Position numbers and translations under genes: made by a program. Shown in pieces: positions 31,093 to 54,621 of a stretch of DNA of 64,000 nucleotides. The stretch spans positions 451,501 to 515,500 of the forward strand of contig NZ_CP132543.1 in the NCBI RefSeq assembly GCF_030845195.1, given 5' to 3'. The notes beneath the pieces were generated by a model. That model searched no databases. It was not told the origin of the DNA and was given only the letters and a program-made list of their open reading frames with translations. Positions within the stretch are counted from its first letter, which is position 1. Every line of letters begins with the position of its first letter. This DNA is from Sanyastnella coralliicola (GTDB lineage Bacteria > Bacteroidota > Bacteroidia > Flavobacteriales_D > Sanyastnellaceae).

Positions 31093-31641
31093 CTATATGA
31101 GCTGAACTTGGTACGTTAGTAGTTTAGGAAGTCTTCCTTTTTTACTCAGTGAATAAGCTGTAAGAATCACGGTTATGAAGTTGAAGAGAACCAATGCCAA
31201 CATCACAATCAGGATCAATGGAGTTTCCAATCCTAATCCTCCTTGAATAAAAGGAGCGGCTACAATGAGCACTACGTAAAGTAGTATCCATAGCAGTTGA
31301 AAGTTGACGATGATCCTAGCCATTTTTCGGATGGAAGGATTATCAGAATTTCGTTTCCAAATGACTAATGGAAGAATAATATGCAGCAAAGGAAGGAATA
31401 GGAAAGAGAGAACAGATAGATTAATCATCTTGATTTTCGATAGAGTGACTTCGTCGATGCGACATGGGGTGTCATCAAATTGAACTTCGAAATATTCCTC
31501 TAGCCTTTTCAATGTGTTTCCTTTCGGCAAATCTTCAGAAGACTCAACCCGCTGAATTGTGCGCAACGACAGTTGCGTTTCATCCGCAAGTTGACTTTGA
31601 GTAAGTCTGCGCTGAATTCTGTGTTCCCTTATTTGATTCAT
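31093..31641 (-). CDS. XRE-family HTH protein with DUF4870-like membrane domain
   Basis: 182 residues from ATG 31641, which places the HTH at the N-terminus (IREHRIQRRLTQSQLADETQLSLRTIQRVES, residues 4-35). The C-terminal half has three to four hydrophobic segments with the DUF4870-type start WKRNSDNPSIRKMA. It is a membrane-tethered DNA-binding regulator. It is the last chromosomal gene before the repeat region and island. Confidence 0.85.
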   Translation of the reverse strand: MNQIREHRIQRRLTQSQLADETQLSLRTIQRVESSEDLPKGNTLKRLEEYFEVQFDDTPCRIDEVTLSKIKMINLSVLSFLFLPLLHIILPLVIWKRNSDNPSIRKMARIIVNFQLLWILLYVVLIVAAPFIQGGLGLETPLILIVMLALVLFNFITVILTAYSLSKKGRLPKLLTYQVQLI

Positions 31642-31946
31642 GATTTTCCTATCATTCAGCTCATATTCATCGAAACCACAAAATAGAGGAAAATACATCC
31701 AACCGGTTATGTGTAATCCCTTTATAAAGGTATTCAATTCATGGTGATTGGTTCGGGTCTACTTATGGTGTGCTTTCACGAGAAGAAGATTCATTCAAAC
31801 TCGTTGAACTCACCGACCTGTTTTTTGGGGAATCATCATTGACCCATGGGAAGAATGGCACTTTCTTGTGGTTCGTTTATTTCGTGCGCTCCAATCGCTA
31901 TTCTTCATTCATAGAATTTTAAATCCTTCGTTGAAAGAACAAACCG

Positions 31947-32171
31947 CGTTCACAACCATCCCCAACAACCCCAATTTCACAATCACTCAAAACAATCCCC
32001 TGTTCACAATCAACTTTCTAAACCTCATGTTCACAATCGGTTTTGAAGAGTATCTGTTCACAATTGATTTTTCGAACGTGTGTTCACAATCGTTTTTGAA
32101 GAGTACCTGTTCACAATCGTTTTTCCAAACGCGTGTTCACAATCACTGTCGAGCAATCCATGTTCACATGC
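31947..32171 (+). repeat. Array of nine TGTTCACAATC motifs at 26-27 bp period (plus orientation)
   Basis: Motif starts: 31947, 31974, 32001, 32028, 32055, 32081, 32108, 32134, 32161. The 11-bp core is TGTTCACAATC with terminal variants, including ATTTCACAATC. Spacers of 15-16 bp vary, several with TTTTT or GAAGAGTA blocks. The spacing equals about 2.5 helical turns. Read as codons it gives FTI-starting nonapeptides for five units and then loses frame where the spacing becomes 26. The 31642-31946 sequence before it holds no gene I can support. Confidence 0.85.
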
Positions 32172-32445
32172 ATCTTTTCCTCTATGTGAACAGAAATCAG
32201 TGATGCCGAAGTGAAATAGTCCGAAGGGAAAATATCATGTTTCCATATTCTCATCTCCAGTTCTACACACGCCATGAATTACAGTTGCCTTTAATTCCAT
32301 AACCTCAAGATACCTCGGATAAGGCGGTAGAAAAAAACGTTCACAGCATTTTAGACTAGTGCGGTGAGATACTCGATGAATGAACTATTGCTATGAGAAT
32401 AGATCTGTTTTGTGATTGCCCTATATATAAACTGAGTGGTGAACG

Positions 32446-32518
32446 GGAGAGGGAGAGTGAGAGGGAGAGGGAGAGATGGGGAAATGGTGGACCGTGGACC
32501 GTGGACTGTGGACCGCGG
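32446..32518. repeat. GAGAGG-rich tract followed by GTGGACC heptamers
   Basis: A GGGAGA-type purine tract (32446-32477), then four to five GTGGACC/T heptamers (32487-32518), between the two TGTTCACAATC arrays. Confidence 0.75.
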
Positions 32519-32529
32519 TTTTTGACTGT

Positions 32530-32702
32530 GATTTTGAATAGGCTTTTTCGCTGATTGATTGTGAAATGGAAATTCCAAAGTGTCATTGTGAACATGCGAT
32601 CTCAAAACACGATTGTGAACACAGCTTTCAGAAAATTGATTGTGAAATTCGAACTCTAGAAAGTCATTGTGAACATGGAATCACCAAACACCAATGTGAA
32701 CA
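32530..32702 (-). repeat. Array of seven TGTTCACAATC motifs at exact 27-bp period (minus orientation)
   Basis: Starts on the plus strand: 32530 (degenerate, 9 of 11), 32557, 32584, 32611, 32638, 32665 and 32692, as GATTGTGAACA and variants. The orientation is opposite to the 31947-32171 array, so the two converge on a 358-bp centre. The ATTTCACAATC variant occurs in both arrays. In the FTI reading frame the array carries TAG and TGA stops, so it is not an intact gene. Confidence 0.85.
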
Positions 32703-51973: not shown

Positions 51974-53071
51974 CTATAAGTTGGGTAGTTTATCAATCGC
52001 TTCTTGCTTGGTTCGATCCATGACCTTGGCATATATGGCCGTTGTTTTTAAGTCTCGATGACCAAGTAGTTTTTGAATGGTTGCAAGATTTGTGTCTTCG
52101 TTGAGTAAGACGGTGGCAAAGGTGTGTCTTGCGCAATGAAAGGTGATCTTCTTGTCTATTCCAGCCCTTAGCATCCATCGCGAAAGCTTGATGTTCATCT
52201 CAGAGCTGTATTTCAATCCTCGAAACACACGGGCATCGGGATCCAGAGGTTCTCCTGCAAGACGGAAGGCTGTTTCATTCAAAGGAATGGAAACGGTGTC
52301 TTTCGTTTTTCGCTGCTGGACTCGCACAACAGGTTGATCTGGCTTGGACATGTCAATGTGCCGCCATTGTAGTTTCATGAGGTCGCTATGACGAAGTCCT
52401 GTAAAGCAAGAAAAAAGGAAGGCGCGTTTCAAGATTTCTGAGTCACATTCAGCGTAGAACGCGCGTTCGAGTTCTTCTTTGGTAAGAAAAACACGTTCTG
52501 CGCCTTTGTCGATAGAAAAGCTCTTTACCCCCTGAGCCGGACTATGGGCAATGATCTTCTCGTTGATGGCCTGATTGAAACAAGCCTTGAGTTTATTGAA
52601 GTAACTGTGCTTGGTCGCTTGAGATAAAAGCTTGTAACCACGACCTCGGTGTTCTTTGTCAAGGTACTTGCGAAATCGCATGACCCATTCACGATCGATA
52701 TCCTTAAAACGAATGGGTTCCTCTATATAGTCTTCAAGAATTTTATAGACGCTGTCCCAATTCCCAAAGTTCCCTTTTGATTCAAAGCGCTCATCGGCGA
52801 GTTTCCTGAAATACGGTAAGAACTCCGTTTCAACTTGGAACTCTTGAAGCACACCTGCGCGTTTTTTAGCTTCAAGTAGGTGGCGTTCGGCACAAATGTC
52901 ATCCGCTAGTAGGCGAATCTCTTTATTATGTTTTCGCTCCTGTGCGTCTTTGGGTTGGTTAAAGACTTTTAGTTTAAGCGATTCCTTCTTCCGTTTCCCT
53001 TTGTGATAGATATCCAAAAAAAGGGTAGAAGTTCCATTTCCCATGTCTTTTTCTCTAACCGTAACCTTCAT
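51974..53071 (-). CDS. int: Tyrosine site-specific recombinase (integrase) of the island
   Basis: 365 residues. Arm-binding N-terminus (1-85), SAM-like core-binding domain (about 86-185) and catalytic domain with R227 (FTGLRHSD), K255, H312-x-x-R315 (HCARHTFA), H338 (LLGHRD) and Y347 (TTAIYAKV). All catalytic residues are present. It lies at the right end, 180 bp from attR, and is preceded by TGGGACAAAAA sites that could be its arm sites. It recombines the mnmE tail. Confidence 0.95.
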   Translation of the reverse strand: MKVTVREKDMGNGTSTLFLDIYHKGKRKKESLKLKVFNQPKDAQERKHNKEIRLLADDICAERHLLEAKKRAGVLQEFQVETEFLPYFRKLADERFESKGNFGNWDSVYKILEDYIEEPIRFKDIDREWVMRFRKYLDKEHRGRGYKLLSQATKHSYFNKLKACFNQAINEKIIAHSPAQGVKSFSIDKGAERVFLTKEELERAFYAECDSEILKRAFLFSCFTGLRHSDLMKLQWRHIDMSKPDQPVVRVQQRKTKDTVSIPLNETAFRLAGEPLDPDARVFRGLKYSSEMNIKLSRWMLRAGIDKKITFHCARHTFATVLLNEDTNLATIQKLLGHRDLKTTAIYAKVMDRTKQEAIDKLPNL

Positions 53072-53250: not shown

Positions 53251-53268
53251 TCACTTCCCAATACAAAA
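53251..53268 (-). other. attR: reconstituted mnmE 3' end
   Basis: On the minus strand TTTTGTATTGGGAAGTGA encodes Phe-Cys-Ile-Gly-Lys-stop, the end of the intact mnmE. It is 20.5 kb from, and in direct orientation with, the copy at 32782-32799; 14 of the 18 bases agree and both encode the same residues. Confidence 0.87.
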
Positions 53269-54621
53269 CTTCCCAAAAATATTCCCCAGCAAATCATCCG
53301 TCGTGATCTCGCCGGTGATCTCGCCGAGGTGATGGAGAGCTTTGCGAATATCTATCGCCATAAGGTCGCCAGGGATGCCGGTTTCCATGCCGGTGAGGAC
53401 TTCCTGTAGTGTGATGCGGGCTTTGGAGAGGGCTTCGTGGTGGCGGACGTTCGTCACGATGCTGTGTTCTTTGCTGACCGCTTGGAGGTTGCTGACATTG
53501 ATGAGGCTCTCTTGGAGTTCGAGTAAGCCTTTCCGCGCTAGCGAAGAGATAAATAATACCTCAGAAGGATAACCGGAAAGATCCACTTTCGATGCGTCGA
53601 TTTTGTTTCCGACGATGAGTAGTTGTTGTCCTTCAGTGAGTTCTTGGTTGAGGGTGGTGAGCTCGGTTTCGAGTTGGCTTGGCGAAAGCTCATTTACATC
53701 GAATAAGTAGGTGATGATATTCGCTTCGCGGAACGCATTCATGCTTCGTTCGACACCGATCTTCTCAATAACGTCTTCGGTTTCTCGAATCCCGGCCGTA
53801 TCGATGAAGCGGAATTTGATGCCATCGATGACCACGAAGTCTTCGATGGTGTCGCGTGTGGTACCTGGAATGTCTGAAACGATGGCACGCTCTTCATTCA
53901 ATAAGGCATTGAGTAGGGTTGATTTCCCTGCATTCGGTTTACCAATGATGGCTACTGGGACGCCATTCTTAATGGCATTTCCCGAACGGAAAGAATCGAT
54001 CAAGGCAGTGATCACACTGTTGATCTTCAGTAGAAGATTCGTGAGCTCGGTTCGGTCAGCGAACTCCACATCTTCCTCAGAAAAATCAAGTTCGAGCTCA
54101 ATCAGAGAGGCGAAGTTGATCAACTCTTTTCGTAGTCCAGCGATTTCTTTCGAGAAGCCACCACGCATCTGATCTAAGGCCAACTCATGTGCGCCTGCAC
54201 TTTCAGCTGCAATCAGATCAGCTACCGCTTCGGCTTGACTTAAATCCATCCGACGATTGAAGAAGGCGCGGAAGGTGAATTCACCACGCTCCGCATAACG
54301 ACAACCGTTCTCGACAAGGATGCGCAGGATCTCTTCTTGGATATAGGTAGAACCGTGACAAGCGATCTCGATCACATCTTCTCCGGTGAAGCTGTTCGGA
54401 CCTTTAAAGACGGTCATCACTACTTCATCTACCACGCGTTCGCCTTCCATGAAGCGACCATATTTGACGGTGTGACTCTTGGCACTAACCAAGTCTCCGC
54501 TAAATAATTGATGGCAGAGGTTGATGGCATCAGGACCAGAAACACGGATCATCGCAATAGCACCCATCCCTGGGGCTGTCGATAAAGCACAAATCGTTGA
54601 ATCGTCAGCATGGAAAAACAT
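53251..54621 (-). CDS. mnmE: tRNA uridine-5-carboxymethylaminomethyl(34) synthesis GTPase MnmE
   Basis: 456 residues, full length. N-terminal tetrahydrofolate-binding domain (FFHADDSTICALSTAPGMGAIA), a helical domain with an inserted G domain: GKPNAGKS, DIPGTTRDT, DTAGIRE, NKID. It ends in the catalytic CIGK motif. With MnmG it makes cmnm5U34 in tRNA anticodons. The last 18 bp are the island attachment site, and the coding sequence is intact because the island restores the tail with synonymous codons. Confidence 0.97.
   Translation of the reverse strand: MFFHADDSTICALSTAPGMGAIAMIRVSGPDAINLCHQLFSGDLVSAKSHTVKYGRFMEGERVVDEVVMTVFKGPNSFTGEDVIEIACHGSTYIQEEILRILVENGCRYAERGEFTFRAFFNRRMDLSQAEAVADLIAAESAGAHELALDQMRGGFSKEIAGLRKELINFASLIELELDFSEEDVEFADRTELTNLLLKINSVITALIDSFRSGNAIKNGVPVAIIGKPNAGKSTLLNALLNEERAIVSDIPGTTRDTIEDFVVIDGIKFRFIDTAGIRETEDVIEKIGVERSMNAFREANIITYLFDVNELSPSQLETELTTLNQELTEGQQLLIVGNKIDASKVDLSGYPSEVLFISSLARKGLLELQESLINVSNLQAVSKEHSIVTNVRHHEALSKARITLQEVLTGMETGIPGDLMAIDIRKALHHLGEITGEITTDDLLGNIFGKFCIGK

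Follow-up and report, generated by a model that had tools for sequence, protein, structure and literature searches.

What are two arrays of one short motif, facing each other with an almost constant step of 27 bp, doing next to mnmE? The question was raised by a stretch of 64,000 nucleotides, here called the window, which corresponds to C1:451501-515500 of the source genome (G000, a single contig of 4,097,636 bases). The original prediction described nine plus-oriented TGTTCACAAT units facing seven minus-oriented ones and offered three meanings: iterons of an origin or partition site, inverted ends of a small transposable element, and decayed genes for FTI-starting nonapeptide repeats. Here, the locus is set against the rest of its genome, against a sister species (G001) and a third species of the same genus (G002), and against larger genome collections.

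The array pair beside mnmE

Listing of the individual units confirmed both arrays with the orientations and boundaries first described, the 358 bp gap between them and the reported periods: the steps of array A measure 27 (four times), 26, 27, 26 and 27 bp, and those of array B are all equal (Table 1). The count of 16 units also held, but a flipped copy, TGTGAACA, at the inner end of array A had been missed. No outer flipped unit was seen at array A of the window, and no gene was seen between its arrays. Allowing up to two mismatches, TGTTCACAAT matches the window 42 times, compared with a mean of 29.9 and a maximum of 42 (reached once) in 100 shuffles, and 16 of these matches fall into the 756-bp stretch of the two arrays, where about 0.35 would be expected. 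The promoter-like box between the arrays points through array A toward an HTH-DUF4870 gene (31093-31737).

The site had been placed outside an island and beside the original mnmE end, and it does lie there, array B ending about 84 bp outside the left copy of two short repeats that are alike in 13 of 14 bases. In G000, the island with its integrase and type I restriction genes sits between mnmE and array B. Located at the 3' end of mnmE, it also carries genes for WYL and DUF2130 proteins, a type I methyltransferase and a protein that combines HARE-HTH, HATPase and type I specificity domains.

Table 1. Positions of features at the window locus and at related loci. Entries without a locus label or genome name are window positions.
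Feature	Position	Strand	Remark
Array A	31947..32171	+	nine direct TGTTCACAAT units, 27/26-bp lattice
Unit starts, array A	31947, 31974, 32001, 32028, 32055, 32081, 32108, 32134, 32161	+	
Flipped unit TGTGAACA	32185..32192	-	inner closure of array A, N16 (16 bp) past last TTCACA
Promoter-like box TATCTTG	32306..32312	-	aimed at array A; taken as promoter from its fixed geometry
Operator-like site GTTCACAGCATTTTAGACTA	32339..32358	+	GTGAAC (other strand) 26 bp before TATCTTG box
Core TATATATAAACTGAGTGGTGAAC	32422..32444	+	21-nt part at 32424-32444
GA-rich and GGACCGTGGACC-type simple repeats	32445..32529	.	filler from core to array B; alike filler at several other loci
Array B	32530..32702	-	seven direct units, 27 bp apart
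Short repeats TTCCCAATACA(G/A)AA	32786-32799 and 53255-53268		
Island	32786-53268		
Integrase	51974-53071		
mnmE	53251-54621		
Array loci in G000	483 kb (window), 957, 1101, 1754, 1879, 2226, 2411, 2693, 3103, 3424 kb		
Gene-order breaks, G000/G001	window both edges; L013 inside array A; L015 7 bp outside B; L030 26 bp outside B; L015 30-142 bp outside A; L009 125 bp outside B		
RHS-core-like ORFs in G001	L035 67-1176; L061 11973-12977, 14771-15364; L062 893-1849; L033 6447-13988		

The G001 counterpart of the window locus is split over two contigs. The first, C68 (L059), contains array A, the core and the inner part of array B and is 80% identical over 484 bp, and the second, C54 (L036), contains the outer part of array B, followed by a 1015-aa ORF and mnmE. 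This split looks like an insertion within array B, because both contig ends carry CGATTGTG beside non-array sequence and because a longer copy of C68, present in the assembly G057, enters a Mutator-family transposase ORF. In that copy (L086, on contig C77 of G057) the transposase adjoins array B; mis-binning is the probable reason why L086 and L059, from genomes of different families, do not differ over 1745 bp. The G002 mnmE has a 1017-aa homolog of the 1015-aa ORF after it, and reading of 18 kb in this region revealed no array. A motif scan of G001 also picked up ORFs with motifs that we take to be RHS-core-like, located close to array loci or at places that have an array locus in G000 (Table 1).

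A dispersed module of constrained sequence

The genome-wide search for the motif at 27-bp spacing, proposed with the original prediction as a check, revealed that the arrays are not a local curiosity: they occur at ten loci in G000, with 88 matches of a three-unit pattern at ten places and 0 for the reversed control. Two arrays are present at nine of the loci and one at 1101 kb; A and B have the same orientation in seven of the nine and are inverted relative to each other in the window and in L016. An extended motif, TGTTCACAATBRN4T, matches G000 62 times, in 61 cases inside the ten loci, and G002 not once (0 matches). Perfect copies of the 21-nt core TATATARACTGAGTGGTGAAC number 11 in G000, and all of them belong to the ten loci, the 1754 kb locus having two and the 1101 kb locus having its copy about 1 kb from the array; G001 has five copies, one of them with a mismatch, and G002 has none.

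Among 40 genomes searched, G000 included, arrays were found in G000 and G001 only. With up to two mismatches, the core occurs in four of 399 genomes of the order, namely G000, G001, G057 and G280. The G057 match was set aside, its contig being the one that is 100% identical to C68 of G001 over 1745 bp and most likely mis-binned, and the G280 match (two mismatches) lies in an unrelated stretch with no array within 3 kb around the core. A pattern scan of 84,980 GTDB species genomes, a set that may leave out the window's own genome, returned 19 stretches, five of them from JAKVAX; the other 14, together with three viral stretches, were judged by eye to be unrelated repeats. Five of these 14 belong to Candidatus Parabeggiatoa (L038, L039, L044, L051, L052), whose short repeats consist of another 27-bp unit, with TTCACAATTAGC in it, in a few nearly identical copies, likewise unrelated by eye. 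The search for plasmid or phage relatives gave no match or unrelated repeats only.

Over the 188 units of G000 and G001, which were chained by motif likeness (6 of 10 bases), a procedure that favours all motif positions alike and may have added chance units at the outer ends of some chains, TGTTCACAAT is nearly fixed, and this includes bases that would be silent in FTI codons: within TTC-ACA, C5 is kept in 186 and A8 in 178 of the 188 units. Among 183 spacings, 158 measure 27, 22 measure 26 and 3 measure 25 bp, so that 25 are not multiples of three. Information reaches into the spacer, chiefly as a T tract at positions 15-17 (110 G000 units), as would suit a second protein contact one turn further on. 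In seven array pairs aligned between G000 and G001, differences affect 17 of 380 positions in the motif and 112 of 557 in the spacer (Fisher p 5e-13); motif columns were defined by TTCACA in either row, which somewhat favours conservation, and the L015/L034 pairs count as members of one family rather than as proven orthologs. Between the two species, the length of some arrays changes by whole units.

Written with array A on the plus strand, a module usually begins with array A between two flipped units and continues with a gene or about 150 bp of spacer, a TATCTTG-like box on the minus strand that points toward A, the operator-like site GTTCAC..TTAGACGA, the core, simple repeats and array B, with 0.4 to 1.4 kb between the two arrays. 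L011 departs from this order in that its core is reversed and the module is present twice, in tandem. The operator-like site is found at eight of the ten loci, six times with 0-2 mismatches and twice (window, L011) with 3, and is absent from L010 and L030. Outside the loci, its pattern matches G000 five times, always with 3 mismatches, and the reversed control matches seven times; in the window and at L011 the site, GTTCACAGCATTTTAGACTA in the window being a weak match by itself, is thus at the off-locus level, and position alone supports it there. GTGAAC and the box stand 26 bp apart in L011 (twice), L012, L013, L014, L016 and L017 and in L031 and L059 of G001, and 24 bp in L009 and L015 and in L033 and L034 of G001, the box forms searched (TATCTTG, TATCTTA, TAAATTG, TATACCTTG, CATACCTTG) having been picked after the loci had been read.

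Array A stands between two closing flipped units in the best-kept copies. The outer one follows with N26 in L012, L013 and L016 (L014 with one mismatch) and with N24 in L009 and L015, and the inner one with N16 in L012, L013, L014, L016 and the window and with N18 in L015 (L009 with one mismatch). Neither is present in L010, L011 and L030, and an exact flipped unit at array B was found in 0 of 9 cases. N26 plus N16 and N24 plus N18 both give 42, twice the usual 21, and by this arithmetic the 27-bp lattice may persist through the flips; closures and box spacing are common to the loci by descent and do not count as independent.

The genes enclosed by the arrays differ: an HTH gene in L009 and L015, a coiled-coil gene in L015, an ADP-ribosylglycohydrolase gene in L011, a PF06983 gene in L014, a weak polyketide-cyclase-like match below the family cut-off in L010 and two unknowns in L030. 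As in the window, none was seen in L012, L013 and L016. At L016 (5489-8326; G000 C1:3.425 Mb), a Pycsar pair (PycTM, PycC) and then a DRT8 reverse transcriptase are encoded after array A.

An HTH-coiled-coil operon linked to the arrays

L015 (C1:3.104 Mb) encloses, between A and B, genes for an Xre-type HTH_3 protein of 92 aa and for a coiled-coil protein of 154 aa, both of which read toward array A, located 128 bp past the coiled-coil stop. The G001 counterpart, L034, keeps both genes, with 2 non-synonymous and 8 synonymous changes in one and 2 and 5 in the other (pN/pS 0.009/0.130 and 0.006/0.047, from small counts). There is one whole-looking copy of the pair in each array-bearing genome (G000, G001) and none in the window. 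Decayed copies exist as well: L009 retains 35 coiled-coil residues, with a stop, a remnant is found on C46, and C30 contains an HTH match with stops.

In G002, two tandem pairs of homologous genes (C2:244-985 and C2:1273-2014) share 26% identity with L015 in the HTH and 29-31% in the coiled-coil protein. About 65 bp past the coiled-coil stop, each pair is followed by an array of seven or six TTTGTCAACACC units, oriented relative to the genes as array A is in L015 and spaced at about 25 bp (range 23-28), which is looser than the TGTTCACAAT lattice. Flipped closures were not found at these arrays. Toward the other end of the contig, at distances of about 8 and 11 kb from it, there are two more TTTGTCAACACC arrays, neither accompanied by HTH-coiled-coil genes; of the G002 genome (about 3.8 Mb), 586 kb were read, and these contain no further ones and no TTCACA pair at 26 or 27 bp. 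TGTTCACAAT and TTTGTCAACACC both contain TGTnnACA, with TC in the middle of the former and CA in that of the latter.

All four operons in which both genes are whole (one in G000, one in G001 and two in G002) have an array after them, and these four represent two lineages. We regard this link between operon and array as the strongest new point of the analysis. Matches to either protein were found, among the 40 genomes, only in the three of this genus (limits of E 1e-3 and 1e-5). G000 also contains a fused HTH-coiled-coil paralog of 301 aa (L094 5082-5987; G000 C1:605581-606486), which suggests that the HTH and coiled-coil proteins act together. No array was seen in 5-6 kb on each side of this gene or of an orphan coiled-coil gene of G002 (L093); six TGTCCACA copies 0.2-1.4 kb upstream of the fused gene lie within simple repeats and off any lattice. 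The predicted structure of the HTH protein is poor (mean pLDDT 52.6), and a search by sequence found no solved relative; the coiled-coil protein is predicted to form long helices (mean pLDDT 74.3, pTM 0.26).

Readings of the module

The window locus may well be one copy of a dispersed regulatory module that is bounded by arrays and bound by the HTH and coiled-coil proteins, and we put the probability of this reading at about one half. We consider the arrays real and constrained and the mechanism moderately supported; binding of the arrays by the HTH protein is what we infer from the arrangement of genes and motifs. The HTH protein would read TGTnnACA, with one protein unit per step of about 27 bp, and together with its coiled-coil partner would coat arrays of roughly seven units. 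Cross-linking by the coiled-coil protein could then pair array A with array B in cis, and perhaps arrays of different loci, so that the promoter between them would be looped out and repressed or insulated; in the window, the looped promoter would be the one directed through array A toward the HTH-DUF4870 gene.

Plasmid partition sites offer the nearest comparison in kind. According to PMC5016525, the split parC of plasmid R1 (type II partition) consists of two blocks of direct iterons flanking a promoter, which are coated by the small DNA-binding protein ParR, and the loop that forms represses the promoter between the blocks. The module resembles this description in having direct iterons in two blocks around a promoter, which is putative here, the operator-like site being missing in L010 and L030. 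Unlike split parC, it is found at ten chromosomal loci, its arrays step by 27 bp, lie 0.4 to 1.4 kb from each other and mostly share one orientation, its candidate binders are an HTH_3 and a coiled-coil protein, and among the flanking proteins scanned neither parR or parM genes nor a ParM-like motor were seen. The parS/omega system of pSM19035 has separate iteron arrays of 9, 7 and 10 units that overlap different promoters. Several separate iteron arrays at promoter-like regions are a feature of the modules, too, but these are chromosomal, the candidate HTH_3 binder belongs to another class by Pfam, and no ParA-like partner was seen. Of the iteron or partition meaning given originally, the oriented site arrays around a promoter-like region stand, whereas the ten chromosomal loci speak against it, as does a scan of flanking proteins that turned up neither par nor rep genes.

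More tentative than the module itself, and in our view rather doubtful, is the wider proposal of a new class of motor-free, two-protein array systems, in which arrays of roughly seven units, distributed along the chromosome, would physically gather or insulate accessory genes, a defence cluster included, and in which motif and step would evolve with the HTH protein. The proposed code would pair TGT-TC-ACA with 27 bp and TGT-CA-ACA with about 25 bp. A literature search (titles and abstract starts) retrieved no description of such arrays or of HTH-coiled-coil array systems. If real, such a system would provide a chromosomal, multi-locus counterpart to plasmid iteron-promoter loops, a simple code leading from HTH protein to motif and step, and possibly a single local control of accessory genes in Flavobacteriales; in L016, it is the Pycsar pair and DRT8 that come after array A.

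The foremost rival, which we regard as rather doubtful, holds that the two arrays terminate a gene-cassette system or a non-autonomous mobile element, with a transposase or recombinase binding the arrays and the core as exchange site. The gene-order breaks at array edges fit a mobile or recombining element as well. Such breaks between G000 and G001 occur at or near seven of nine comparable array edges, a raw count from which the break at array A of L009, the same event as that of L015 A, was left out; moreover, the copies are dispersed with differing enclosed genes, G001 is without the element at the L009 site and beside the right flank of L030, and the L011 gene lies between two direct copies of a segment that comprises the core and most of an array (91% identical over 294 bp). 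Against mobility, two of the nine edges are unbroken (L010 A, L013 B), gene-order breaks also occur elsewhere in the flanks, and motif bases are kept at sites common to two species. No clean empty site was present among the loci compared. In transposons of the Tn7/TnsB or Mu type, either end of the segment contains several short sites for a protein. The modules resemble them in this, but A and B point the same way in seven of nine loci, and neither an array-tied transposase (among the proteins scanned) nor a target duplication was seen, so that the TnsB-type inverted ends of the original prediction are not supported. REP/BIME and other dispersed intergenic repeats are likewise intergenic, occur in several copies and are often found at gene 3' ends. 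The modules are like them in these respects, yet differ in being ordered arrays with a fixed core and a promoter-like region, in few copies and with a constrained 10-bp motif.

An unlikely alternative to the regulatory module is that of centromere-like or chromosome-organising sites, at which the HTH-coiled-coil complex would gather the ten loci or tether the chromosome. Arrays of about seven units do resemble parS/parC iterons, the coiled-coil protein has a weak MukB-like match, far below the family cut-off, and five loci lie on each side of dnaA, none of them within about 550 kb of the point opposite it, a spread that is measured from dnaA and, with ten loci, weak by itself. On the other hand, the module direction relative to dnaA is mixed, the TGTTCACAAT motif is absent from G002, and no ParA/ParM/TubZ-like gene was found among the flanking proteins scanned. 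A structured RNA, transcribed from the promoter through array A, would account for a box that points into the array, but it is very unlikely: 0 of 10 predicted pairs changed on both sides in six aligned sequences (first unit of the array only), and six loci gave no Rfam match at gathering score.

The likeness of TGTTCACA to some DnaA boxes would suit DnaA-titration (datA-like) or replication-initiator sites, which we consider highly improbable, as neither TGTTCACA nor a TTWTNCACA box occurs within 3.2 kb around dnaA in G000 or G002 and the extended motif is absent from G002. Decayed FTI nonapeptide genes are barely credible: 27 bp equal nine codons and stretches of several arrays are open, but conservation is as high at silent positions as elsewhere, 25 of the 183 spacings shift the frame, a stop interrupts the FTI frame in array B of the window, codon-level constraint was not found, and no intact repeat protein, which the original prediction had named as its refutation, was seen at the loci read.

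Further repeats recur in these genomes, and an IS-like ORF lies outside array A in L015. The inverted repeat GGACGGATGTTATCCGTCC is located just outside array B in L012 and L030 (6297) and also in G001 without an array (L062 near 1930). A dispersed, partly tandem repeat of about 177 bp is found at L009 6596-7123, L015 9277-9446, L034 5430-5670 and L061 10595-11022, and intergenic simple repeats, among them GGTCCACGGTCC, CCGGCGTCCGGCATCCGG and GAGAATTAGAATG, occur in the window at 1863, 20026, 20942, 32489-32518, 57216 and other positions, as well as at several array loci.
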